A stretch of 62,028 nucleotides of DNA, taken from the IMG/VR virus record IMGVR_UViG_3300036715_003821, positions 1 to 62,028 of that record; one strand, 5' to 3'. Each line of letters opens with the position of its first letter. Within the stretch, counting starts at the first letter, position 1. The notes beneath the pieces were generated by a model that was given only the letters and a program-made list of their open reading frames with translations, did not search any database and was not told the origin of the DNA. Positions 3,043 to 58,801 of this stretch are shown in pieces. The position numbers and the translations under genes are program-made. The DNA comes from a virus.

Positions 3043-3108
3043 AAAAGAAATGAGTAAAACGGTTGAGATGAAATACAACACATTAGCTTTTTATTACTAT
3101 AAAACAAA
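3043..3108 (+). repeat. 66-bp direct repeat, copy B
   Basis: Second copy of the metzincin segment at 2735-2800. Its right end is the junction to a diverged copy of the tnpB 3' end. The peptidase part is nearly identical while the tnpB part is much more diverged, so the two parts have different ages or origins. Confidence 0.9.
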
Positions 3109-3325
3109 AGTAAATAGAAAGGGTAAGACATTTTTATGTAGATCTTGTGGTTATACAGAAGATTCAGATAAAAATGCAGCTTCCAATTTATTACTTGACC
3201 TTGTAGAGGTTCCATATTGGGTACGTTTAAACAACTATAATTTGTCAGGTTTCTATTGGAGAGCTGATGGGTTATACAATTTAAGTCAGGAGTTATTAGT
3301 CCCTGATACATCTGAAGTTTTATAA
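3050..3325 (+). pseudogene. Chimeric remnant: metzincin fragment fused to TnpB C-terminus
   Basis: A 91-codon open frame. The first 20 or so residues ('MSKTVEMKYNTLAF') copy an internal part of the upstream metzincin. From about residue 22 on it matches the TnpB C-terminus: half of the zinc ribbon ('CRSCGYTEDSD'), the last RuvC motif ('DKNAASNLL') and the tail ending 'LLVPDTSEVL'. It lacks the peptidase active site and two of the three RuvC motifs, so it cannot be an active enzyme of either kind. It keeps the 3' hairpin (TCAGG 3286-3290, CCTGA 3302-3306) and so may preserve a guide-RNA end. Confidence 0.8.
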
Positions 3326-32113: not shown

Positions 32114-32686
32114 TTATTTTGTAATTTCATACAGTAGGGACGCCAATACTGTTGCGTGTCCTACTTTAATTTTATCATTTTCCCACAAAGAATCGTAATT
32201 ATTATTTTCTGGAAGATTGTGAGAATCAAAATCTACCAAATGCAATGTTTTATTTTCAGATAAACATTGTTGATATATAGATGACAATCGTTTAAAAGCC
32301 TCAGTTTTCTTTACGGCTTTTGCGTAAAGAGGTATGTAAATTTCCTTTCTAGCCTCTACATACCCGAGAGTTTTTCCATCCCAAATGGAGCAAATAGGTT
32401 TTACATCTCTACCCATAGGATATCTTTCAGCTTTGCTAGAAAGCCAGCCCGCTTGAGCCCATGTAAAATACCTACTTGATGGCTTACCATTATCTGCATA
32501 GTATGCATACAATTTTGAATATTGCCATCCATTTTCTACGTTTTTAGAAAAATAATTACCATACAAATCTACAGGTCCAAGAAAAAAAGGACTCAAACCT
32601 GAAGACCAATTTTCAGAACGTGATGTTGTATTTACACTAACATCTGTTTTATTTAACTTATAGTTAAAATTTACCAATTTAATCAT
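32114..32686 (-). CDS. Conserved phage-type protein, 190 aa
   Basis: Resembles a protein I recall from other phages, with 'FFLGPVDLYGNYFSKNVENG' near residue 34 and 'YFTWAQAGWLSSKAERYP' after it. The family has no known function. No signal peptide or membrane segment. Neighbours are the SPFH gene and a 126-aa protein in one run. Confidence 0.65.
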   Translation of the reverse strand: MIKLVNFNYKLNKTDVSVNTTSRSENWSSGLSPFFLGPVDLYGNYFSKNVENGWQYSKLYAYYADNGKPSSRYFTWAQAGWLSSKAERYPMGRDVKPICSIWDGKTLGYVEARKEIYIPLYAKAVKKTEAFKRLSSIYQQCLSENKTLHLVDFDSHNLPENNNYDSLWENDKIKVGHATVLASLLYEITK

Positions 32687-34803: not shown

Positions 34804-34974
34804 CTAGTAACATAAAATAAAACAATCGCTGTAAATATGATTATCTTTTGTGTGATAATCTAAACCAATAATATCACATATCGCAAACAAAAACGATATG
34901 TAAATAACTGTATAAAGAATCTCCCATAAAAAAGACCATATCAATAAAGTTAAAAACTTATTAATTTTTTTCAA
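34804..34974 (-). CDS. Small membrane protein, 56 aa (TTG start)
   Basis: Open frame from TTG 34974 (AAAGG 8 nt upstream, inside the RNA ligase end) to TAG 34804. The product has one or two membrane helices ('FLTLLIWSFLWEILYTVIYI'). It fills a 167-bp gap, overlaps the ligase by 14 nt and ends on the ribosome site of the next gene. The TTG start keeps confidence moderate. Confidence 0.4.
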   Translation of the reverse strand: MKKINKFLTLLIWSFLWEILYTVIYISFLFAICDIIGLDYHTKDNHIYSDCFILCY

Positions 34975-36145
34975 GCTTATAACCTTTGCCTTTCAATTTA
35001 ATGATTTTACGACCCAGCTTATGGTGATTGGATTCTGGAATACTACGCATTACAAAACCTTCTCTCACACATTTGCCCAAAACAGACTCACCTTCAGCAA
35101 ACTGCTTGAATTCATCTGAGTTTTTAAATTCACCTTTGTATAAAATGGGTGCGGTTTTTAAGCCAACTTCTTTGCATATTTTTTCAACTTCTGACCATTC
35201 CAAGTATTTTTTCTTGTATACATCATACATGTCGAAAACTCGGAAATCTCTTTCTTCTTTACCAGGGCAATCATAACGCCATTTTGAAAGATTACCATAC
35301 CATTCGCCAAAGATAGCAATTCCATTGTATTTCTTAAGCTTACGCTCAAGATCATATTTTTGAGCCATTGACCACCAATGATCATGAGAAAGCTTTGGAT
35401 CAAACCATTTAAGATAAATGGAAGTCTTTACAGCTTCATACAATTTGCCACAAGCTTCAAGTAAAGAAGAAACAGAAGATATCCTCTTAAAAAAATCACC
35501 ATATCTTACAGCCGGATGTTTTGCTTTAAAGAAATTACGTGAGCGAACCCAAAGTTTATTTTCCGCATAAACCATGCAAAGGTTTTGACCTTCAAGCTTT
35601 TCTTGAATTAAAACCTGCTCACCTTCTTCAAAAGCATAACCATATTTTGCCATACCTTCCAAGTCATACTTAAACATCTGAAATGTTTTTGGTGACTTTT
35701 CATTTTGATTATGGTTTTTTACTTTTTGAGAAACAACTTCATCAAGTTCTTCTTCATAAATACGCTTTTTCAAAGATAAGGCTTCTACTACAGAATCACC
35801 TTCTTTTAAGTCACTTGGAACTGGTGCAAGTAAACCTTCCGAATACGTTCCTCGCAAACGTCTTGCTTTGATGTAACGGTATTTTTCAGGAACCGAACCC
35901 ACTTCATACAAAGGAATTGTTTTACCATTATCATCTTTTCCTGTTGGACAAAGAAAATGAAATTGTTCAGTATCTGGAACAACAGTATCATAAGGTAAAA
36001 ATGCAGCCAAATCACCTTCTTTGAAGTCACCCTTTTTGAAAATAACTGGGTACTCATTCATTACAGTGGTAATGGAAAGAAAGTCAGAATTTGGTAGTGG
36101 TTTTACTTCTGAAATTTTAACTACAATAGGATGCCAATCACTCAT
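34961..36145 (-). CDS. RNA ligase with N-terminal OB-fold (DraRnl-like)
   Basis: A 394-aa nucleotidyltransferase. The N-terminal 130 residues look like an extra OB-type domain ('FKKGDFKEGDLAAFLPYDT'). Motif I 'IQEKLEGQNLCMVY' has the lysine that takes AMP; 'VRSRNFF' (motif Ia), 'AIFGEWYG' (motif III), 'EGFVMRS' (motif IV) and 'KLKGKGYKL' (motif V) follow. The layout recalls Deinococcus RNA ligase DraRnl, which seals RNA breaks in duplexes. Together with the Rnl1-type enzyme it gives the phage two RNA ligases. Overlaps the methyltransferase by 4 nt. Confidence 0.82.
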   Translation of the reverse strand: MSDWHPIVVKISEVKPLPNSDFLSITTVMNEYPVIFKKGDFKEGDLAAFLPYDTVVPDTEQFHFLCPTGKDDNGKTIPLYEVGSVPEKYRYIKARRLRGTYSEGLLAPVPSDLKEGDSVVEALSLKKRIYEEELDEVVSQKVKNHNQNEKSPKTFQMFKYDLEGMAKYGYAFEEGEQVLIQEKLEGQNLCMVYAENKLWVRSRNFFKAKHPAVRYGDFFKRISSVSSLLEACGKLYEAVKTSIYLKWFDPKLSHDHWWSMAQKYDLERKLKKYNGIAIFGEWYGNLSKWRYDCPGKEERDFRVFDMYDVYKKKYLEWSEVEKICKEVGLKTAPILYKGEFKNSDEFKQFAEGESVLGKCVREGFVMRSIPESNHHKLGRKIIKLKGKGYKLEKN

Positions 36146-46697: not shown

Positions 46698-46823
46698 TCA
46701 GTCATAACATTCATTTTCAAAAAATTCATAATCATCATCATAATCATAATCATGTTCTTGATCATTATAGTTAACGCAAATTACATCAGAGTCTTCTAAT
46801 ACAACTGAATCAATAATAATCAT
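46698..46823 (-). CDS. Small acidic protein, 41 aa
   Basis: Open frame from ATG 46823, overlapping the RNA ligase stop by 4 nt, to TGA 46698. Extremely rich in Asp and Tyr ('EHDYDYDDDYEFFENECYD'). May mimic nucleic acid. The overlap and composition support it, but it is short. Confidence 0.5.
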   Translation of the reverse strand: MIIIDSVVLEDSDVICVNYNDQEHDYDYDDDYEFFENECYD

Positions 46824-47956
46824 TTTTCACCCATCTTTGAAAGAAAAAAGTCAATTAAACTGGTTGGATATCCACCAATATCTTTTTGAGCATCTAAGAA
46901 TTTGTCAAAATCACCATGCTTTAACATACCAAACAAAATATGTTTGTAATTACTATATTTACCGACAACATATAATGCGAATTCTTTTTTATTATTCGGA
47001 TCTGTAGAAGATAAACAATCTTTAAAAGCATCTTTTATTTCATGAGAAATAACAATATACTTTTCTTTTAAAGCCATAAGTTCTTCAAACAAAATCTTTG
47101 GAATCAAAGGCTCCAAATCATCTTCTAGATTGTTGATAATAGCTTGAAGCATATTACGCTTGCTTGAACCAACATTTGATGAAAGATGATGAGCAGCAAC
47201 ATAATTCCCACTTTTAATTTTCACACGCCGAAAATCAGGCGTTAAAATAACAAAACCTTCAGCTTCTTTTGCAGGGCGATTTTCTAAAAATAAAATCAAA
47301 CCTTCCCAATGATCAAAAGAATGTGTCTTTGCTTTTTCTACAGGCAAATCAATTTGTTCAATATCCATTTCTTCCAATGTAATATTAGAACGACAACCTG
47401 TTAAAACAAGTTTTGGATGATCATGCAATACCACGATTTGATTCCATGGACTCAATATTTCAAAAATATACGTATTATTTTTATCTAACAATGACGTAAA
47501 ATCATTGAAGTTCAAATTATTGTACGTTAAACAACGTTCAAATATCTCTCTAAATGTTAGATCTAACTGGTTTTTAATATCTGCATCTGGAGCGGAACGT
47601 GTGGCTACACACCATTGTCCCATATCATAATAAACAATACCACAAGTGCCATCATACTTTTCATAAACCTTAGAAGCTAAAATTTCTTCTTTGGTTGAAA
47701 TGGAGGCGGATCCTTGACCAAAATTAAAGAATCTAAAAAATGGGACAGCAATTGATTTATATTCATTGCCTTCCATGCGAACGATAAGACCACGACATTC
47801 TTGTGCGATTTCATCATCATTGGAAGCTTCCAATGAATCATAATTCAAAGAAATCTTATTATTGCTACCAATACTAAACTCAACTTTATGATCTTCGTAA
47901 AGATCTTCTAAAGATTTTCCAGAGTTTAAATATTGCAATGTTTTTAAAGTTTTCAT
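46820..47956 (-). CDS. rnlA: T4 Rnl1-type RNA ligase
   Basis: A 378-aa ligase, near T4 Rnl1 in size (374 aa). Motif I 'VYEKYDGTCGIVYY' near residue 98 holds the lysine for AMP; 'ATRSAPDAD' near residue 118 (motif Ia/III), 'YIFEILSPWNQIVV' near residue 165 (motif III), 'EGFVIL' near residue 232 (motif IV) and 'RVKIKSGNYV' near residue 243 (motif V) follow. With Pnkp (3484-4392) it repairs tRNA cut by host anticodon nucleases such as PrrC. C-terminal domain is present. Confidence 0.9.
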   Translation of the reverse strand: MKTLKTLQYLNSGKSLEDLYEDHKVEFSIGSNNKISLNYDSLEASNDDEIAQECRGLIVRMEGNEYKSIAVPFFRFFNFGQGSASISTKEEILASKVYEKYDGTCGIVYYDMGQWCVATRSAPDADIKNQLDLTFREIFERCLTYNNLNFNDFTSLLDKNNTYIFEILSPWNQIVVLHDHPKLVLTGCRSNITLEEMDIEQIDLPVEKAKTHSFDHWEGLILFLENRPAKEAEGFVILTPDFRRVKIKSGNYVAAHHLSSNVGSSKRNMLQAIINNLEDDLEPLIPKILFEELMALKEKYIVISHEIKDAFKDCLSSTDPNNKKEFALYVVGKYSNYKHILFGMLKHGDFDKFLDAQKDIGGYPTSLIDFFLSKMGEK

Positions 47957-48741: not shown

Positions 48742-49575
48742 ATGAAATCAAACATAAAAAACATTATCTCACAAATAAATCTTATAAAAAATGCTGGAAT
48801 GATTGATGTTCCTAATTTTATTCTTCAAAAATTCAAACAAGAAATGCCAAAAAGAATAAATTCAAAAATCAACTTATTTATAAAATCAAATCGTGATTTA
48901 CATTTAGAGTCCAAACTAAAAGATGCCACTTCATTCTCTGATATTTATTTTGAAATAAACTCAAAAGAAGATTTGCAAGATTGGAAATACAAAGATTATT
49001 GGGTAAATGATTTACATGTTTCTTTAAATGTTGTATTTGCTGGTTTAAAATCTGATGTTAATTCTTTATCTGCTGCAAATTTCACTCATGAATATGATCC
49101 AAAAGAAAACTTATTGGATTGTCAAATTGTTATTAATGTACCCAAGATAACAATTGAAGATGTTCAAGATCCCATACCTCTTTATAAAGAAATTTATTCT
49201 TTGTTTCATCATGAATTAACTCATTTTGCACAAACTCTTTTGTACAAAATAAAAAATAATGATCATGGTAAATATTATGGTAATTGGAACAAAAAAACAA
49301 TTGACCTTAACAATCATACTCAAAATTCTTTAGAACTTTTAGAAGAACATTCTTTGATGGATATTGAGTTTTATCCAAATATTATCACACAAATAAATAA
49401 TTTTGAAAATTACTTAAAAACAAATGATAAATCTTTGGATGAAAATCTAAAAGAATTTATTGGAATACATGATGTGCCAAAATCACCTTTCTTTGCAGCA
49501 TTAAAAAAACACAACAAAGAAAAATACAAAAAAGCAATCAAAGAATTTTATAAACTTTATTCGAACCAAGAATAA
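48742..49575 (+). CDS. Putative zinc metallopeptidase (HExxH)
   Basis: A 277-aa plus-strand protein with 'SLFHHELTHFAQTLLY' near residue 153 (HExxH) and 'LEEHSLMDIEFYPNII' about 50 residues later, where an acidic residue could complete the zinc site. No signal peptide, so cytosolic. It converges with the TIM-barrel gene in a 19-bp overlap. Confidence 0.65.
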   Translation: MKSNIKNIISQINLIKNAGMIDVPNFILQKFKQEMPKRINSKINLFIKSNRDLHLESKLKDATSFSDIYFEINSKEDLQDWKYKDYWVNDLHVSLNVVFAGLKSDVNSLSAANFTHEYDPKENLLDCQIVINVPKITIEDVQDPIPLYKEIYSLFHHELTHFAQTLLYKIKNNDHGKYYGNWNKKTIDLNNHTQNSLELLEEHSLMDIEFYPNIITQINNFENYLKTNDKSLDENLKEFIGIHDVPKSPFFAALKKHNKEKYKKAIKEFYKLYSNQE

Positions 49576-50231
49576 AGATCTTCAACATAAGAATTTAAAG
49601 CTTCAACTTTATGAAAGTTACCTTCATAAACAATTGGACAAAGATTTTTGTTTTCAACAACCCAATCAACCATAAAAGCTTCTTTTGTGGCAGGTTGATG
49701 TGAATCCCTCCTGCCATCATTCATAGAAATATGAATTTCTCTTATATTATCATACCCCTGAATTCTTTTTATTGTTTTATCTGAAATTAATTTTTGATGT
49801 TTCAAAATATAAACATGTGAAATATCAAGTGCAATTGGTCTTTTTGTATCCAAATAATAATTTATCTCTTCATCATTTGCAAGCCAATAACCTGGATGCA
49901 TAATTTCAAAAACCTGATTCTCAGGTTGTTTTTCTAACCACTCTTTAAATGTCATTGAATTTAATAACTTATTTGGTGGGTGAACAGATCTTTCATCTTG
50001 AATAAGTAATTCGAGATTGTTATTATAAATAGATGGAGCTACAGAATAATAACTAAAATTATGATGTACCTTATCTTGTGGTGATATAATACTTTTGAAT
50101 AATTTATTAATCTTATTCCCAGAACACAATTGTATTGCTTTTGGTTTTAAGTTTTTTAGTTTGTTATAAGCTTCAACTTGATCTATGCCTTGAAAACAAG
50201 ATGTGGCAAAATGAATGTAATTTGATTGCAT
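49557..50231 (-). CDS. Xylose-isomerase-like TIM-barrel protein
   Basis: A 224-aa protein with 'PIALDISHVYIL' and 'REIHISMNDGRRDSHQP' near residue 166, followed by 'PIVYEGNF' near residue 205. The strand-end His/Asp/Glu pattern matches the AP-endonuclease-2/xylose-isomerase superfamily (metal-dependent). It could be a sugar isomerase or an endonuclease; length is on the short side. Confidence 0.55.
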   Translation of the reverse strand: MQSNYIHFATSCFQGIDQVEAYNKLKNLKPKAIQLCSGNKINKLFKSIISPQDKVHHNFSYYSVAPSIYNNNLELLIQDERSVHPPNKLLNSMTFKEWLEKQPENQVFEIMHPGYWLANDEEINYYLDTKRPIALDISHVYILKHQKLISDKTIKRIQGYDNIREIHISMNDGRRDSHQPATKEAFMVDWVVENKNLCPIVYEGNFHKVEALNSYVEDLYSWFE

Positions 50232-50884: not shown

Positions 50885-50912
50885 AAAAAAGCCACTGCAA
50901 AGTGGCTTTTTT
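50885..50912. terminator. Bidirectional intrinsic terminator
   Basis: AAAAAGCCACT-GCAA-AGTGGCTTTTT stem-loop between two convergent genes; T runs on both strands. Confidence 0.9.
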
Positions 50913-50914
50913 AT

Positions 50915-51373
50915 TTAGTACCTCAAATATTTACCACCATATTTTCCCCAAATTTTCAAATCACATGCAAGTATGATTAAATCAATATATTTATCATTAA
51001 TTTCTGATAATTCTTTGATAACTTCAACTAATTCATTAATATGAATTTCATTGATTTTATTTAAAATCAATTCTTCATCTTCAAATTGACATTTCATATC
51101 TTCAATTATATCTTCAACATATGATCCTTGATTTGATAAATCATAATTGAATAAACGGATATCTTTATGAGAATCATCATTGTAATAAACAACCATGTAA
51201 ACAGAATCTGAATAGCCACCTTCATCATTATATGAGCGATTAAGGTCAAATGAAAGATGACATTTTTCTGGAAGTTTTAATTTACATGTATCATAAAACA
51301 TCTTCTCAACATCACAAATAAGTTCTTCTTGAAGTGCTTTATATTTGGTTAGTTTTAATTTAAAAGATTCCAT
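50915..51373 (-). CDS. NDEGG-motif protein, 152 aa
   Basis: Member of a family repeated in this part of the window. The shared core is 'DLNRSYNDEGGYSDSVYM' near residue 45: a strand, then N/D-D-E-G-G, then a second strand. Around it are a helical N-terminus and a C-terminal helical pair. Function unknown; I recognise no outside family. Its ATG is adjacent to the stop of the next member. Confidence 0.75.
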   Translation of the reverse strand: MESFKLKLTKYKALQEELICDVEKMFYDTCKLKLPEKCHLSFDLNRSYNDEGGYSDSVYMVVYYNDDSHKDIRLFNYDLSNQGSYVEDIIEDMKCQFEDEELILNKINEIHINELVEVIKELSEINDKYIDLIILACDLKIWGKYGGKYLRY

Positions 51374-51810
51374 CAGTAACCAATCTTAACTGGAATGCAT
51401 GAAAGACCTAGCAAATGATTGTATTCATTTAGTGACATGCAATCCATAACATGTTTTGCTATTTTCTCTAAATTATCAGTAAGTAATTTAATTTGCTTTT
51501 TTGTTAATCCAGTTTCAACTGGATCAATGTAATATTGCATCTCACTTCTAATATCTTCATTTATTACAATTGAACCGCCATCATAGATTAAATAGCAACA
51601 AATATTAACACCACCCTCATCATCCCCTTCATTATAAATTCTCCATTCCTTTACTTTTGGAAAGGTTTGTTTAATTTCCTCGGATAGTAAAGAAATATGA
51701 TTTCGTTTGGCTTCATTTAAAGCATTTAAGGCGTCATTATATTTACCATACAATTTATCAATTTTTTTCGCTAGTTGTGCTTTTGTTTGTTTTTTTTCAG
51801 TATTCTCCAT
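51373..51810 (-). CDS. NDEGG-motif protein, 145 aa
   Basis: Second family member: 'RIYNEGDDEGGVNICCYLIY' near residue 58 carries the motif, here D-D-E-G-G. A Lys-rich N-terminal helix ('KKQTKAQLAKKIDKLYGKYN') and a helical end complete the shared layout. Overlaps the gene at 51797-52072 by 14 nt. Confidence 0.75.
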   Translation of the reverse strand: MENTEKKQTKAQLAKKIDKLYGKYNDALNALNEAKRNHISLLSEEIKQTFPKVKEWRIYNEGDDEGGVNICCYLIYDGGSIVINEDIRSEMQYYIDPVETGLTKKQIKLLTDNLEKIAKHVMDCMSLNEYNHLLGLSCIPVKIGY

Positions 51811-52072
51811 CTCGAACCTCTACTGGTAATTTATATTCATCACAATCGCCATCTGTACAAAAAGTATAAAATGTTTTCAAGAATTGTTGAATAACTTTTT
51901 TGTCTTTTTCTTTTAGATCCTCTGGTAAGAAAGTATCTAATGTAAATTTAGAACAATCTTCCGTGTTCATAAGAGCATCTTCTGAATCCATTTTGTAAAC
52001 ATTATAAGACTCATCATCTTCTTGCACCACACAAACATCGTAGCATCTAACCCGACCCACATGGTTTCGCAA
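51797..52072 (-). CDS. Possible truncated NDEGG-family protein, 91 aa
   Basis: The end ('LPEDLKEKDKKVIQQFLKTF') resembles the C-terminal half of the NDEGG proteins, and 'CVVQEDDESYNVYKM' stands where the motif would be, in degenerate form. The frame opens with a TTG, not ATG. A separate short frame upstream (52095-52262) may be its former N-terminal helix, so this could be the 3' part of a broken member. Confidence 0.45.
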   Translation of the reverse strand: MRNHVGRVRCYDVCVVQEDDESYNVYKMDSEDALMNTEDCSKFTLDTFLPEDLKEKDKKVIQQFLKTFYTFCTDGDCDEYKLPVEVRDGEY

Positions 52073-52094
52073 TGAACTGTTAGATTTGCTTTAG

Positions 52095-52262
52095 TTAAAG
52101 CTTCTTTTGCTTTATCATATAGGGATAAACTTCTTCTTTTAGTTGATGAACTTCTGCTTGAAGATTTGAAATTTTTTCTTGTAATTTTTCAATTTTATTT
52201 ATTTTTACATCACTCATATTGCGTTCCTTAATTTTTACTTCATCTAACTTTGAATTAGTCAT
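52095..52262 (-). CDS. Small coiled-coil protein, 55 aa
   Basis: ATG 52262 (GGA 8 nt upstream) or ATG 52217 (AAGGA 7 nt upstream, 40 aa); both have a ribosome site. The product is mostly one coiled coil ('IEKLQEKISNLQAEVHQLKE'), like the N-terminal helix of the NDEGG proteins. Either a real small gene or the detached front of the next, degenerate member. Confidence 0.5.
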   Translation of the reverse strand: MTNSKLDEVKIKERNMSDVKINKIEKLQEKISNLQAEVHQLKEEVYPYMIKQKKL

Positions 52263-52731
52263 GTTCATATTCCTTTGGAATATCTGTATTATCACAAACA
52301 TCTTCTAACCAAGACTCATCCGCATAATGTTGTAAGAAATCTGTTATTTTTTCAGCTAATTCATCCATCTTTTGTGCATCTTCCGATTGGAAATCTTTAA
52401 TATCACATTCTTCCAAGAAATCTAAAGCACTAATATCATTCACATACTCAGAAGCATGTTCAATTGTTTTCACTTCTTTTTTGTGTTTAACTACAATAGT
52501 TTCATATGTTTTGTGAAAGTGTAAATTAGGTGTAAAACTTTCTTTACCATCATCATCGTGAGAATAGCTACAAATTAACTGAAGTCCAACCTAATGTTTT
52601 TGAGCAGCTGGTATTTCCTTGAATTCTTTATAAAAACCATTTAATATACCCGCCGAAATATCAACGATTTTACAGTGAATTTCATTGCTTTTAGCAATTA
52701 AGTCATCAATTTCTTTATTCATTTTATTCAT
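52255..52731 (-). pseudogene. NDEGG-family gene with a premature amber codon
   Basis: From ATG 52731 the frame reads 'MNKMNKEIDDLIAKSNEIH...' and meets TAG at 52591-52593 after 46 codons. It then continues in the same frame as 'VGLQLICSYSHDDDGKES' to the TAA at 52255. Without the TAG it aligns along its whole length with the intact gene next door (52744-53232), including the motif region and the 'ESWLEDVCDN' end. TAG ends other genes here, so recoding is unlikely. Confidence 0.75.
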
Positions 52732-52743
52732 TTTATTAATATT

Positions 52744-53232
52744 TCAGCTGAAATCATATTTAGATGGAAGGATTGTTTTGTCTAATGTATCTTCAATCCA
52801 AGGTTCTGCGGAATAAAACTCAATTAACTCACTTATTTTAGTTAATAGTTTCTCTCCATTTTCGATATCCTCATTTGGAAGATCTTTATCAATACCTAGT
52901 TTATCTGTCATAAAGTCTAATAGCGATTGATCTTCAAAATATGTAGATATGAAATTAGGCTCTTCTATTATTTTACATTTTCTTTTATCTTGAGTAGTTT
53001 CCTCTGGTTTATGAATGGTTTTAATGAGAATAAGTTTTGGATAAAAATCTTCTCCACCATTATCATTTGAATCGTAGTATTTAAATACAAAGATCTCAAT
53101 GCCATGTTTTTTGATTGTTGGTATTTCTGTAAATTCTTTATAGTAACCATCCAATAAGTCACTTGATATCTTTGCCATCTCATTGAAAAGTTCATTTACT
53201 TTTTCTTTTAATTTGTTAATATCTTTATTCAT
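52744..53232 (-). CDS. NDEGG-motif protein, 162 aa
   Basis: Third intact member, motif 'KYYDSNDNGGEDFYPKL' near residue 53 (N-D-N-G-G). N-terminal helix ('INKLKEKVNELFNEMAKISS') and C-terminal 'EPWIEDTLDKTILP'. The adjacent broken gene is its closest relative, so a tandem duplication is likely. Confidence 0.75.
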   Translation of the reverse strand: MNKDINKLKEKVNELFNEMAKISSDLLDGYYKEFTEIPTIKKHGIEIFVFKYYDSNDNGGEDFYPKLILIKTIHKPEETTQDKRKCKIIEEPNFISTYFEDQSLLDFMTDKLGIDKDLPNEDIENGEKLLTKISELIEFYSAEPWIEDTLDKTILPSKYDFS

Positions 53233-53241
53233 ATTATTTAC

Positions 53242-53720
53242 CTATATGTGTTGCATTAAAGTTTCATAATCAATATGAGTTCTTTCAGTTAATCTATATT
53301 GCTCTCTAGCAATTTTATCCACACTTCTCTTTAGTTTACCCAGTGTAAAATGAAAATTAACCATATAAACATCATTGTGTTTTAATGTTGGTAATCCAAA
53401 ATGTTCTCTAATTCTACATAAATCTTCCGAATAACAATCTGTCCAAACATGTAAGCCATTTGTTTCATATTTTGAACTACACTTAAATTTTATAGTTGCA
53501 TCTTGGAATTTTTTGTTAAACCAATCATTATTTATAGAAGGTAACTCTGATTTAATTACGGAAATATGTGGTTTTTATTTACTTTTAAATCTAAATTAAA
53601 TTTTTCAATTTGAGAATTTTGAATTTCTTGACTGATATGCAATAACATCCAATCATCCTCATATTTAATAATACCTTCAACATAAGATGAATTCGAATAA
53701 TCTAATATGGATGAACTCAT
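53242..53720 (-). pseudogene. Frameshifted 2H phosphoesterase, Acb1-like
   Basis: ATG 53720 gives 54 codons and stops at 53556. A frame shifted by -1 at a run of five A (near 53565) gives 'KPHISVIKSELPS' and continues to TAG 53242. Joined, the protein has about 157 aa with two H-x-[ST] motifs: 'PHISVI' (H51) and 'NFHFTLGKL' (H123). Size, spacing and a 'REHFGLP' stretch before the second motif recall phage 2H phosphoesterases such as T4 anti-CBASS Acb1 (152 aa, H44 and H113). Overlaps the DNA ligase stop by 4 nt. Confidence 0.6.
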
Positions 53721-55051
53721 TTTATTTCCTTTAATGAATTGGCAATGGTTTTATCAAATCTAATTTCTAAAAATACTGGTAAGAATAATGACCAAGCATC
53801 ATGTTTATCTTGTATTTTTGTGTTGTATTGTACCTTGGCTATTTTTCCAACCCATGATTCTGGGTCTTTGGAAAAATGAATAAGCATATCTTCGGTAAAA
53901 CCAGATCCAACATTAACATTTAATGTTTTATCTTCAGACTGACAGATAAATCCACCAATCCATCCGTTTTCTTTTCGCTTATTTTCACCTTCAAAGTAAC
54001 CAATGATTTTCAAGTCACAATCATTTACTTCTTTTAACTTAATCCAATGCTTTGAGCGTTTGCATTCGTAAAGGTGTGAAGCTGTCTTAATGATAAGACC
54101 TTCGCCTCCTTTGGCAACCACTTTGTTGAACAAATCATTAATTTCTGTTTTAGAAGAAACAACATGCATCTCTGCTTGAAGCAAATGCTTAAAAGAAGTG
54201 TCAAGAAATGTAGAAACAATTTGTTCCCTACGTTTTGTATATGGAACATTTCCTGTAATATCTTTTTCAATCCAAGCAAAATCACCAACATCAAATATAT
54301 TGAAAAGCAAATCACTATCTAAAGCTGATTTGGCTTTTCCCTTTAGAATTTGGTTTACTTTACCTGTTACAGATTTGCGATTAAAGTCTGTTAACTCACC
54401 ATCAATAAATACTTGATGGGAAATATTATTTTGTTGTTTAAACTTTTTGATAAATTCCGCCGCTTCTTTTTCAATAGAAGGCATCAAATCTGAATTAAGA
54501 ATATTGAAATTTCTGGTGTAAAAAGTTACGCCTTCTTTTTCTTCAACAGCAATTACACGCACACCATCATATTTGATTTCAGCATAATTCACTTTTGAAG
54601 TATCAATTTGCGTCATATCATCTTGTGCTGCCATTAACTCCAAATCTGGAATAAAGTTCTTGCCAAAAACTTTGTTGATAATAGAAACACCAACGCCAAT
54701 ATTAAGGTTTTTTGTTAGGATTTTAACAAGCATTTCTTTTTGTTCATCCGAACAAGATAAGCAACTCACTTGCTTTTCCAAGAAATGACGATCTTCATCT
54801 TTTGCTGCTTTCACAGTAAGTAGATAATTGATTTTTTCTTGGATTTTATCAAATGCATCATCACTTGTGGATGAAGAAGTTGTAATACTTAATTTTGAAA
54901 CTTTTGTTGTTTTGAATGGATTTGTTGCTATTTGCAGAAGCCATTTCATAGTTTCTGTCTTACAATCAGCAAGTAATTTTTGTTTTTCAGTTGCTGAACC
55001 TGTCCCAGATAACTGAGACATATCAATAAGTGTTTGTAATTCTTTCATCAA
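53717..55051 (-). CDS. ATP-dependent DNA ligase
   Basis: A 444-aa ligase. The N-terminal domain (residues 1-150) resembles the DNA-binding helical part of phage ligases. 'YAEIKYDGVRVIA' near residue 158 is motif I with the AMP lysine. 'FIDGELTDF' (motif III), 'GGEGLIIKT' (motif IV) and 'HWIKLKEV' (motif V) follow. It seals Okazaki fragments together with the FEN-type exonuclease (22943). Length is close to T4 gp30 (487 aa). Confidence 0.92.
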   Translation of the reverse strand: MMKELQTLIDMSQLSGTGSATEKQKLLADCKTETMKWLLQIATNPFKTTKVSKLSITTSSSTSDDAFDKIQEKINYLLTVKAAKDEDRHFLEKQVSCLSCSDEQKEMLVKILTKNLNIGVGVSIINKVFGKNFIPDLELMAAQDDMTQIDTSKVNYAEIKYDGVRVIAVEEKEGVTFYTRNFNILNSDLMPSIEKEAAEFIKKFKQQNNISHQVFIDGELTDFNRKSVTGKVNQILKGKAKSALDSDLLFNIFDVGDFAWIEKDITGNVPYTKRREQIVSTFLDTSFKHLLQAEMHVVSSKTEINDLFNKVVAKGGEGLIIKTASHLYECKRSKHWIKLKEVNDCDLKIIGYFEGENKRKENGWIGGFICQSEDKTLNVNVGSGFTEDMLIHFSKDPESWVGKIAKVQYNTKIQDKHDAWSLFLPVFLEIRFDKTIANSLKEIK

Positions 55052-55456
55052 TCATTCCTCATCTTCTATTTTAAATCCAGATTTTTTTAGAATCTTCACT
55101 ATATCCAAATGATTTTGGCTTGCATCATATGTTAGCTCATAAAATGAATCAACGAATTTTTTAAAAGATTTCTTATCATCTTTGCCAAAAGCATTAAGAC
55201 ATTCAATATCCTCGAAATCAAAGTCATCAAGAATATAATTTTCTTTTAAATATAGCGAATAATCTGTGATTATTCCACCCTCATCATCACTATTAATATC
55301 TACCATGATAATTAACTTATCAACAGATGAAATTAATTTCTTGACTTGTGAATATTCCCATTTAAAAACATCGATATAAGAATTTGTAAAATCTTCTTTT
55401 GATTTTTTAAATGCAACTTCTGCTTCTTTTATTTTTTCTCTTAGTTCTTTTGACAT
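55052..55456 (-). CDS. NDEGG-motif protein, 134 aa
   Basis: Member with 'MVDINSDDEGGIITDYSLYL' near residue 53. Start ATG 55456 ('MSKELREKIKEAEVAFKK') chosen over a longer frame because the gene upstream ends at 55458. Directly precedes the DNA ligase gene. Confidence 0.75.
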   Translation of the reverse strand: MSKELREKIKEAEVAFKKSKEDFTNSYIDVFKWEYSQVKKLISSVDKLIIMVDINSDDEGGIITDYSLYLKENYILDDFDFEDIECLNAFGKDDKKSFKKFVDSFYELTYDASQNHLDIVKILKKSGFKIEDEE

Positions 55457-55457
55457 A

Positions 55458-55862
55458 TTAGTAATCAGAGCTTTCTTTAATACCAATATTAAATGCAATG
55501 TTTTCACAATCAAGATAAGTTTCTCCCAACATATCATCAAATGATTCTGAAAATTCTTTGAAATTTTCTTTTTGTTCTTCTGTTAGTTTTTCAACTTCTG
55601 ATTCTTCAAAATAATCTTCTAAGCAATCAATATCAAAATAATATCCATTAATACATGGATTATAATACGTCTTTGTACCACCCTCATCATTTGAGCTATA
55701 AGAAATATTAAGAGTTAAACCACCAATAGCTTTAGTAAGGTCTTTTATTTTATTGTATTGATATTTTAAAAGATCAATGTATAATTGTGAAATTTCATCA
55801 CGAGTATCTTTATATTTTTTAATGGATGAATTAATTTTATCTTTTGTTTCTACTACATTCAT
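55458..55862 (-). CDS. NDEGG-motif protein, 134 aa
   Basis: Member with 'ISYSSNDEGGTKTYYNP' near residue 52 and the same helical ends. ATG 55862 is used; a TTG two codons earlier overlaps the previous stop. Same length as the members on both sides. Confidence 0.75.
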   Translation of the reverse strand: MNVVETKDKINSSIKKYKDTRDEISQLYIDLLKYQYNKIKDLTKAIGGLTLNISYSSNDEGGTKTYYNPCINGYYFDIDCLEDYFEESEVEKLTEEQKENFKEFSESFDDMLGETYLDCENIAFNIGIKESSDY

Positions 55863-55864
55863 AA

Positions 55865-56269
55865 TCAATATACTTCCTTAATTTTCATACCATATTTTCT
55901 CAAAGTATTAACACCATCAAAATCATCACTTCTTACGATTGCCTCAATTGTATTGCTAAAATCGTGAAAAAACTCCACTTGCTCTTCAGTTGGTTTATTA
56001 CCTAAATCAGCTAAAAAATCACCACAACGTTCATCAAGCCCTAAATAACTACCAGCTAAGACAAGAGAATAACTTTTGTATGTACCACCTTCATCATTGT
56101 AGTGATTACTTACATTAAGACTAATCTCACCAATTGGTTCAATAAATTCTTTAATTTTCTCATAGTCAGCTTTTAGTAAATCAACATGTAAGTCTGATAG
56201 TTCTTTTCTTAATTCATTCGCTTTTTCTTTAGACACTTTGATTTTTTCTAAAATTTCTGTATTACTCAT
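55865..56269 (-). CDS. NDEGG-motif protein, 134 aa
   Basis: Member with 'SNHYNDEGGTYKSYSLVLAG' near residue 53. N-terminal helix 'NELRKELSDLHVDLLKADYE' matches those of its neighbours. First of the three equal-length copies; a terminator lies between it and nadV, so the family is transcribed apart from the NAD genes. Confidence 0.75.
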   Translation of the reverse strand: MSNTEILEKIKVSKEKANELRKELSDLHVDLLKADYEKIKEFIEPIGEISLNVSNHYNDEGGTYKSYSLVLAGSYLGLDERCGDFLADLGNKPTEEQVEFFHDFSNTIEAIVRSDDFDGVNTLRKYGMKIKEVY

Positions 56270-56285: not shown

Positions 56286-56316
56286 AAAATAAACCCAACT
56301 TTCGTCGGGTTTATTG
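56286..56316 (-). terminator. Intrinsic terminator after nadV
   Basis: Minus strand AATAAACCCGAC-GAAA-GTTGGGTTTATT followed by TTTTTAAA. Ends the NAD+ salvage operon; the next gene starts 17 bp further on. Confidence 0.88.
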
Positions 56317-56319
56317 TTA

Positions 56320-57696
56320 TCACTGTTCAGATAGTCGTTTTCGTATTTCATCCATAGAATCATTTACCAAAACTTCACCATTCAAATATACGGTTTGCAT
56401 AACCGAGTTAGTATGAGGTTCTTTATCACCAAGAGCAGAAGTTTGATAAAGACCAAATACATCCACCAAATCCAATCGACCCGCTTTGCTGCGCTTCCCT
56501 GGGTCCGTAACGGGATCTTTAAAGACTTCACGAGTCTTTCCATCAACAGTGATAGAAGAGCACTTCATGGCGAATTTAAAGGTGTCACGATTGGGAGCTT
56601 GAAGCAATGCTCCGCCCATCCCAAAAGCAATATTCGTTGCTGAATATTTATGGGAAACTAAATTATCCAAAATATCTTTAATCGAATCATAATTAATACC
56701 ATCACCTTGAATAACTCGAATATTATTAAGAACTTTATAACCCTTACTATTTAGGGTATGACCAAATTTTTTATCAAGAGATTGTACAACTTGCAAAACA
56801 ATATCTTTTGGGATACCAGAATCTGGACGAATAACAACAGTTGCTCCAGAATCAATTACCTCTTGCTTGAGTTTATCTCCCCACAAATTCTCACAAGCAT
56901 TGATAATATCATAACTATCAGAAACAACAGCTAGTATAGAACCAGGTTTAGCAAATTGCTTAAGCATATTACGATAAGCATCTTCTTCATGATCCTTACC
57001 CCATGAAGTGATTGAACTATGCTCCGCTGCTGGAATACTAAATCCAGCCATCTTGCAATTATAAAATTTATTTGCCATTCGAATACCTGCGACAGTATCA
57101 GAACCCAAAAAGTTTACCAAATGAGCTGCACCGCCAATTGCTGCGCTTTCTTGACTTGAAACTCCCCGAGAGCCGAAGTCATGGATTTTGAAGGAAATTT
57201 CAGCACTTGGGTCATCTGAGGATTGTTCCAAATACTTCATAACAAGTTTTTTCATGAAGTATGAATTGGTAGCAACGGTAATTGGATACCAAATTCGAAG
57301 AAGCATTGTTTCGAGCCAAGAAACAACCCAAAATGCTTTTGGATCAGTAGACTCCACAGAAACAAGAATGTTATGAGTTTCAATCAAAGAACCTTCCTTG
57401 GGTGCTCGAATACGTACTGGAAGTTTACCACCAAGATCCTTGGCAATATACATCCAGCCTTCATAATTAAAAGGTTCACCATGAGCATCAAAAAATTCTT
57501 TTGCTTCTTCAACTTCTTCAACAGTAACGCGATGAGTTAAATACTTCTTTAGATAATATTGAAGACCAAAGAAAACAGTACTTTCAAAGGGTCCACCCCG
57601 AGATTCCACGTAGCTAAACATACTCGTGGTATTAGGTGGGTATTGCACCGAATGACTTACTTTATAAGAATCAACGTCAATAAGATAATTTTCCAT
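56320..57696 (-). CDS. nadV: Nicotinamide phosphoribosyltransferase (NAMPT)
   Basis: A 458-aa enzyme of typical NAMPT length. 'DVDSYKVSHSVQYPPNT' at the start, 'FKIHDFGSRGVSSQESA' near residue 168, 'SIPAAEHSSITSWGKDHEED' with the catalytic histidine near residue 226, 'VVSDSYDIINACENLWG' near residue 258 and 'VIQGDGINYDS' near residue 330 are all conserved. It turns nicotinamide and PRPP into NMN. The NMNAT-Nudix gene lies upstream, so the pair can rebuild NAD+ from nicotinamide, as in the NARP2-type phage pathway. Confidence 0.94.
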   Translation of the reverse strand: MENYLIDVDSYKVSHSVQYPPNTTSMFSYVESRGGPFESTVFFGLQYYLKKYLTHRVTVEEVEEAKEFFDAHGEPFNYEGWMYIAKDLGGKLPVRIRAPKEGSLIETHNILVSVESTDPKAFWVVSWLETMLLRIWYPITVATNSYFMKKLVMKYLEQSSDDPSAEISFKIHDFGSRGVSSQESAAIGGAAHLVNFLGSDTVAGIRMANKFYNCKMAGFSIPAAEHSSITSWGKDHEEDAYRNMLKQFAKPGSILAVVSDSYDIINACENLWGDKLKQEVIDSGATVVIRPDSGIPKDIVLQVVQSLDKKFGHTLNSKGYKVLNNIRVIQGDGINYDSIKDILDNLVSHKYSATNIAFGMGGALLQAPNRDTFKFAMKCSSITVDGKTREVFKDPVTDPGKRSKAGRLDLVDVFGLYQTSALGDKEPHTNSVMQTVYLNGEVLVNDSMDEIRKRLSEQ

Positions 57697-57739: not shown

Positions 57740-58801
57740 TCAAACCTCAGAATAAGTTCTGTGATGTGATGTAAAATAACTTAAAATATGATAATGATCT
57801 TCAAAAAACAACTTTGGATTTGCCATTGCTTGGTTGATTTCAACCCATGAGGCGGATGCAGCGTCATCCCCACCTGTTACTTTTGGTAGCGATTTACCCG
57901 TACCTTCATAAAAGAAAGCATGAGTAATTGCTCTACCACGAGAACTTCTACTTGGATGATCAAAAACTTTTGATTCAACAAAAGTAAAATCCTTGTTTTT
58001 ATACAAATTTAAATTTGTCTCCTCCAACAACTCTCTTTTTGCACCATCAATAATTCTTTCATTTTGATTCAAGAATCCTCCGGGCAATGCCCATAAGCCT
58101 TTGCCAGGATTTATCTTTCTTTTAATTAAAAGAACATGACCATGATGACAAATAACACTATCCACTGTAACAAATGTTGGTGGAAATGGTACTGACGCCC
58201 ATTGACTCTTATAATTCTTTACATATTGATGTTCAGATTGAAGGGTTTTATGATCTGTAGTACCATTGTACAACTCCAAAAATGTTAGAGTACCCTTTGG
58301 TAGATAAGAGCGAACAGACTCTAATGTAAATTCTTTTCCAAAAATACTTTCACGTATGTCCGTTGCGTGGACTGTTGCAGGGAATGTAACCTCTGCCTCT
58401 CGATATGTCCACTGGGGAAACAAATCTAAATAATAAGAAGAGTCATCACTCTTACAACCTACCAATGCAATCTTTGGTTCATAATTTTTTGTCCATTTTG
58501 CATCAATAGCTTCAGATACTTTATGTTGTACCTGAGAAATCCAAACCTTATCATTGTAAAGGTAATCATTAATTTCAATAGTTGTAAATGGAAAGTCAAG
58601 CGAATTATTCAACATCGCTTTTCTTTGCTCAGGATTAAAAGGATTCCTGATATTCATCGAAGAATTGCATGATCCCAATAATACAATAACATTATGAGCA
58701 ATTTCATTTGCAGTGTTTAAAATATCTACATGCCCCAAATGTAGAGGTTGAAATCTACCAATAACAATAGCAAAGTCGTAATTCTTAAATTTTCCGTCCA
58801 T
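57740..58801 (-). CDS. nadM: Bifunctional NMN adenylyltransferase / Nudix hydrolase
   Basis: A 353-aa fusion. The N-terminal domain has 'VIGRFQPLHLGHVDIL' (residues 13-28), the nucleotide-binding site of NMNAT, and 'TDIRESIFGKEF' (substrate loop). The C-terminal Nudix domain (from about 205) has 'WALPGGFLNQNERIIDGAKR' and 'ELLEETNL', which together form a nearly perfect Nudix box. It makes NAD+ from NMN and ATP; the Nudix part may clear ADP-ribose. AGGAGG lies upstream of ATG 58801. Works with nadV next door. Confidence 0.93.
   Translation of the reverse strand: MDGKFKNYDFAIVIGRFQPLHLGHVDILNTANEIAHNVIVLLGSCNSSMNIRNPFNPEQRKAMLNNSLDFPFTTIEINDYLYNDKVWISQVQHKVSEAIDAKWTKNYEPKIALVGCKSDDSSYYLDLFPQWTYREAEVTFPATVHATDIRESIFGKEFTLESVRSYLPKGTLTFLELYNGTTDHKTLQSEHQYVKNYKSQWASVPFPPTFVTVDSVICHHGHVLLIKRKINPGKGLWALPGGFLNQNERIIDGAKRELLEETNLNLYKNKDFTFVESKVFDHPSRSSRGRAITHAFFYEGTGKSLPKVTGGDDAASASWVEINQAMANPKLFFEDHYHILSYFTSHHRTYSEV

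Follow-up and report, generated by a model that had tools for sequence, protein, structure and literature searches.

The array and its genes

We analyzed a 62,028-base phage contig from IMG/VR (hereafter the window; G+C content of 31%), which carries eight or nine related small proteins in a row, most of them acidic. We refer to them as NDEGG copies and name them in the order of transcription, i.e., U1, U2 and U3, followed by a DNA ligase, a short cassette, and D1 to D6, all on the minus strand. Six copies are intact, D2 is broken by a stop codon, D4 is frameshifted, and D3 persists as a remnant. The same locus lies on a second, single contig of 8,167 bases (IMGVR_UViG_3300000234_000590, hereafter L008). 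The features of the window are listed below with the evidence for each.

57740..58801, minus strand: NadM-Nudix type protein (NMN adenylyltransferase/ADP-ribose pyrophosphatase); Pfam NUDIX 4e-17, CTP_transf_like 6e-11
56320..57696, minus strand: NadV, nicotinamide phosphoribosyltransferase; tblastn to annotated phage NadV, up to 58%
56288..56315, minus strand: terminator-like hairpin and T-run in the NadV/U1 gap; -15.6 kcal/mol, z -4.4; L008 has one too
55865..56269, minus strand: U1, 134 aa, NDEGG copy; open reading frame, upper-group profile, L008 counterpart 40% identical
55458..55862, minus strand: U2, 134 aa, NDEGG copy with ATG at 55862; open reading frame, profile, AlphaFold2 model, L008 orthologue 60% identical
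55052..55453, minus strand: U3, about 133 aa (133-134), DDEGG copy; open reading frame, profile, 45% to the broken third copy of L008
53717..55048, minus strand: ATP-dependent DNA ligase, within the array, not a family member; Pfam DNA_ligase_A_M E 3.5e-22, 97% aa identity to L008
53233..53720, minus strand: 488-bp cassette, frameshifted possible 2H phosphoesterase; junction at a stop/start overlap, Pfam 2H-SAK E 0.015
52744..53232, minus strand: D1, 162 aa, NDNGG copy; open reading frame, profile-profile comparison, motif, model
52255..52731, minus strand: D2, copy broken by TAG (52591-52593), motif HDDDG; D1 paralogue
52236..52262, minus strand: D3 remnant; alignment with L008 6540-6926, the 387-bp body being present in L008 only
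51797..52217, minus strand: D4, frameshifted copy without the exact motif; intact in L008 (149 aa), hhalign of D3/D4 against the upper group P 9e-6
51373..51810, minus strand: D5, 145 aa, DDEGG copy; open reading frame, profile-profile comparison, motif, 88% aa identity to L008, dN/dS 0.26
50915..51373, minus strand: D6, 152 aa, NDEGG copy, weakest member (P 0.013); open reading frame, profile-profile comparison, motif
50885..50912, minus strand: terminator-like hairpin and T-run after D6; -14.2 kcal/mol, z -4.3

All six intact open reading frames named in the original prediction are present on the minus strand, each with the motif [ND]D[EN]GG. It had also counted one or two damaged copies; two are confirmed, D2 by its TAG and D4 by a frameshift near 52072-52095, and the short D3 remnant had been missed. 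The gene at 55052 is real, with its start probably at ATG 55453 and not, as had been proposed, at TTG 55540, a codon that falls within U2 in a different frame. Stops and starts of adjacent genes overlap or almost touch, and hairpins lie at both ends of the array, suggesting that the whole array, including the ligase, is probably a single operon. A scan for sigma-70 promoters gave a signal no better than that of shuffled sequence.

Beside the end of the array lies a 224-aa protein without a Pfam match (49557-50231). Elsewhere in the window, we noticed a TnpB/Cas12f1-like protein (1096-2439; TNB domain, E 1.2e-10) with a second fragment that has a similar zinc-finger end (3050-3325), an SUV3-type RNA helicase in this phage (5951-7693; DEXQc_Suv3, E 2.9e-54), an HREDGPA-repeat protein at the contig end (59706-62012; DUF6745, E 2.4e-6), and, besides the DNA ligase, two RNA ligases of different families (46820-47956 and 34961-36145; T4 Rnl1-type and RNA_ligase).

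Family membership and search for relatives

A first profile built from six copies returned all of them at E <=1e-39, plus the broken D2; it was set aside because the copies had trained the profile, making the result circular. A profile of the window's U1-U3 alone recovered the upper copies of L008 (E 4e-41 to 2e-22), and the D copies scored no better with it than shuffled sequences. A profile of six upper copies lifted just three D sequences above every shuffle, namely both D5 copies (0.0021 and 0.0066) and D4 of L008 (0.024). Profile-profile comparison against the upper group gave P values of 9.3e-6 for D3/D4, 5.7e-5 for D5, 3e-4 for D1/D2 and 0.013 for D6, with ten unrelated window proteins serving as controls (P of 0.15 or worse). 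The motif itself occurs in 6/6 intact copies vs 0/4,651 other open reading frames of at least 100 aa (1.05 million residues from related phage loci), and its exact form is lost in D2 (HDDDG), D3 and D4 (SDHGTG in D4). Membership is thus very strong for U1-U3, the copies nearest NadV, good for D1-D5 by profile-profile comparison and motif, and weakest for D6. Judged from sequence, U1-U3 and D1-D5 form one family, to which D6 probably also belongs by its motif and a weak profile match. The paralogous family that had been proposed is upheld by these non-circular profile, profile-profile and motif tests, and is larger than claimed.

We found no match to the family in Pfam, PHROGs, NCBIfam, PDB, BFVD, INPHARED, about 90 further phage records and sampled bacterial genomes. 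Specifically, direct searches of Pfam, PHROGs, NCBIfam and PADLOC returned just scattered sub-threshold matches, PDB sequence searches gave nothing consistent, and profile searches run over entire records, those of ligase and NadV relatives as well as named jumbo phages, matched only short segments of the helical part, below threshold. Records with a NadV 43-73% identical or a ligase 40-45% identical yielded no family member, many of these records being fragments. Scans of viral contigs and bacterial genomes, together with tblastn of phages, identified L008 as the only carrier besides the window, the pattern scans being insensitive to distant relatives. Within the collections and sensitivity used, the family is restricted to the window/L008 lineage, and the earlier view that these proteins belong to no known family agrees with the lack of a consistent match in the profile and structure libraries searched. 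One L008 copy (L008 2974) matched GajB, the UvrD-like helicase of Gabija, at 4e-5. Neither the orthologue of this copy, 60% identical to it, nor the other siblings do so, and we regard the match as chance.

Predicted fold

Fold comparison within the family used models of U2 and D1. The AlphaFold2 model of U2 (12-row alignment; mean pLDDT 93.3, pTM 0.83) predicts a 43-residue helix (residues 3-45), two strands (49-57 and 63-71) and three further helices (78-87, 95-112 and 119-125), with NDEGG forming the hairpin turn (58-62). D1 was modelled from D1/D2 rows alone and is therefore independent of U2. Its model is weak (pLDDT 70, with 1/5 models converged and the others at 37-40) and predicts helices 3-35 and 38-43, strands 45-55, 61-73 and 93-98, and helices 104-111 and 120-141; NDNGG (56-60) sits in the turn between strands 45-55 and 61-73. 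The helix-strand-motif-strand-helix plan read originally from the sequence is accordingly reproduced with confidence in U2, and the weaker D1 model places the motif in the same turn, which conserves D-D-x-G(-G). The structural search that had been recommended returned no Foldseek match at E <=0.001 for U2 against PDB and BFVD, nor for D1 against BFVD. Atu_ph07, the best Foldseek candidate by probability, was rejected, its genome having no family match. VIA-align gave best Z values of 4.5 and 4.8 for the two models, within the chance range and with no standout.

Gene turnover and rates of change between two related phages

The order in L008 is NadV, a LAGLIDADG endonuclease, four upper copies, the ligase, D1, D2, D3, D4, D5 and the start of D6. 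Its third upper copy and D3 are frameshifted, D1 and D2 are damaged, and D4 is intact; D2 is broken in both phages, by different lesions. Some lesions may be assembly errors, as both contigs are metagenomic. The fourth upper copy (U4) and the 387-base body of D3 are present in L008 only, and the 488-base cassette is found in the window only, exactly where the ligase stop overlaps the next start. In a tree, U2 and U3 each pair with their L008 counterpart with moderate support, suggesting that most of the duplications had already occurred when the two phages diverged. The ligase is 97% identical between them at the amino acid level vs about 55% for NadV, which indicates that the NadV end was probably replaced in one of the two.

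The L008 endonuclease (L008:1691-2488; Pfam LAGLIDADG_3, E 7e-6) lies between NadV and the array and has no counterpart in the window. In other phages, a homing endonuclease (SegB) drives amplification of anti-defence genes (PMC13096335). The multi-copy locus of L008 likewise adjoins a homing endonuclease, although this enzyme is of LAGLIDADG type and occurs in L008 only, with no evidence tying it to copy formation.

We counted dN/dS between the window and L008 by the Nei-Gojobori method. The ligase has a dS of 0.35 and a dN/dS of 0.04, the D copies have dS of 0.21-0.55 and dN/dS of 0.06-0.59, and the upper copies have dS of 0.66-0.95 and dN/dS of 0.36-0.71. Silent divergence of the D copies is thus close to that of the ligase, whereas dN/dS in most of them is 6-10 times the ligase value; their amino acids therefore change much faster. 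These values remain below 1; no copy exceeds 1 in this comparison, i.e., there is no positive-selection signal between the window and L008. In D5 and D6, identity is 94-96% over the N-terminal helix and drops in the C-terminal part, to 82% (D5) and 61% (D6). The pI is 4.1-4.8 in 9/11 copies vs a window median of 6.6, both D5 copies being near 6.

NAD+ neighbourhood and the embedded cassette

NadV and NadM-Nudix lie upstream of the array, so that the predicted NAD+ salvage flank stands. The 2H phosphoesterase that had been taken as the other border lies within the array: the cassette is frameshifted, its HIS and HFT motifs do not share a frame, and its Pfam 2H-SAK match falls below the cutoff. 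It is possibly a 2H phosphoesterase. We rejected Acb1, a 2H phosphoesterase, as its identity, there being no intact open reading frame with two HxT/S motifs.

In relatives of NadV, the slot just after this gene holds NADAR, ADP-ribosylglycohydrolase and NAD synthase genes. Among the records listed, L097, L098, L100, L101 and L168 carry NAD synthase, NADAR, ADP-ribosylglycohydrolase and DUF6939 genes downstream of NadV. The window also has a DUF6939 protein (32114-32686; Pfam E 1.4e-6), related to those NadV-adjacent genes, here 24 kb from NadV. Phage NadV and NadM have been interpreted as countering NADase effectors, and domains of the NADAR, ADP-ribosylglycohydrolase and NAD synthase types have been discussed within phage NAD+/ADP-ribose conflict systems (PMC9503650). 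The array resembles these neighbourhoods in its slot beside NadV and NadM-Nudix, and differs in its NDEGG proteins, which have no match to any of these domains. It occupies a site that other phages use for NAD+/ADP-ribose conflict genes, an association of position, not of function.

A possible counter-defence array

Small size, acidity and divergence, together with gene turnover and the position of the array, are consistent with the copies being inhibitors or antitoxins against host defences. For this class as a whole we would put the chances at a little under even, and far lower for any specific target. The locus would then serve counter-defence, as an island made up chiefly of small inhibitors, most of them acidic, encoded in tandem. 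Each copy would work as a phage-encoded antitoxin or defence inhibitor, comparable to TifA, Dmd and EsaG-type immunity proteins. All copies would share the helix and hairpin as scaffold or binding tip, the choice of host toxin or defence effector would lie with the C-terminal part, which is more variable, and the copies would diversify to cover different targets, with NadV and NadM-Nudix restoring NAD+ in parallel. The fast protein change, the gain and loss of copies in two close phages, and the NAD+ context all support this reading, and an arms race at the array is suggested. On the other hand, the copies have no homology to any known inhibitor in the libraries searched, their dN/dS stays below 1, and the central ligase is not a counter-defence gene. 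Most copies had already arisen before the two phages diverged, so the array is not a recent burst, which also counts against inhibitors. Furthermore, many phage proteins are small and have an acidic pI, which weakens the case.

TifA and Dmd, from the anti-toxin island of phage T4, are likewise small phage-encoded protein inhibitors of bacterial toxins; for the NDEGG copies, such an anti-defence role, raised in the original prediction, remains an inference. The inhibitor gene tifA is amplified in tandem in T4 under selection (PMC9391042). TifA has 85 aa, and its amplified copies are segmental amplifications of one gene in experiments, whereas the NDEGG copies are divergent and common to two phages; none of the libraries searched with the NDEGG copies named TifA.

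Alternatively, the array could confer immunity to rival phages or to polymorphic toxins of bacteria, and not to intracellular defence systems, which we consider rather unlikely. Arrays of esaG are tandem, consist of non-identical copies and undergo gene gain and loss (PMC9484751), a layout that the strings of non-identical small paralogues resemble, and EsaD-EsaG/DUF600 entries appear for both models at Z 2.8-3.1. EsaG/YezG-like proteins are bacterial T7SS immunity proteins with a four-stranded sheet (PMC9616950), compared with two (U2) or three (D1) strands here. At a cutoff as loose as E 10, the YezG-like Pfam profile (PF04634) still found nothing in the window, although it did match in B. 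subtilis, the positive control, and no toxin gene was recognized near the array.

It is improbable that the copies are accessory factors of the embedded ligase or replication machinery, which would bind ligase or DNA ends and have been duplicated for different complexes. The ligase does sit mid-array in both phages, apparently co-transcribed. Yet its strong conservation beside such fast-changing copies is unexpected for obligate partners, and phage records with a 40-45% identical ligase yielded no family member when searched.

An improbable reading, too, is a hetero-oligomeric coiled-coil or chaperone-like complex with a prefoldin-like layout and the paralogues as subunits. Prefoldin and V-ATPase stalk subunits share the long helix, beta-hairpin and helices, U2 having a 43-residue first helix; both appear among the weak structural matches of the two models (Z 3.5-4.5), and the window also has a GroES gene. 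These Z values, including those for prefoldin (4.0 for 1fxk_C and 3.5 for 2zdi_C, neither significant), are within the chance range for long helices, however, and the Pfam prefoldin profile has no match to the copies. The C-terminal part of U2 consists of three short helices, not one long one, and copy number varies between close phages.

Least probable is a decaying accessory expansion of little function with duplicates passively kept: two damaged copies and a remnant (D2, D4 and D3) and dN/dS up to 0.7 would fit, but six intact copies, a retained motif, dN/dS mostly well below 1, orthologues in both phages, and lesions that may in part be assembly errors speak against it.

Returning to inhibition of host defences, a fuller version would have NDEGG as an undescribed fold family of phage defence inhibitors, in a modular array that exchanges entire genes and adjusts the C-terminal half to each target, maintaining a standing repertoire; taken as a whole, this is somewhat unlikely. 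If the copies are inhibitors, they would constitute a new protein family missing from current profile and structure libraries, and a ready-made candidate panel with one scaffold and eight or so specificities, for which two closely related phages supply natural differences in gene content. It would also mean that phages maintain diverged inhibitors as standing repertoires, beyond the transient amplification of one gene.
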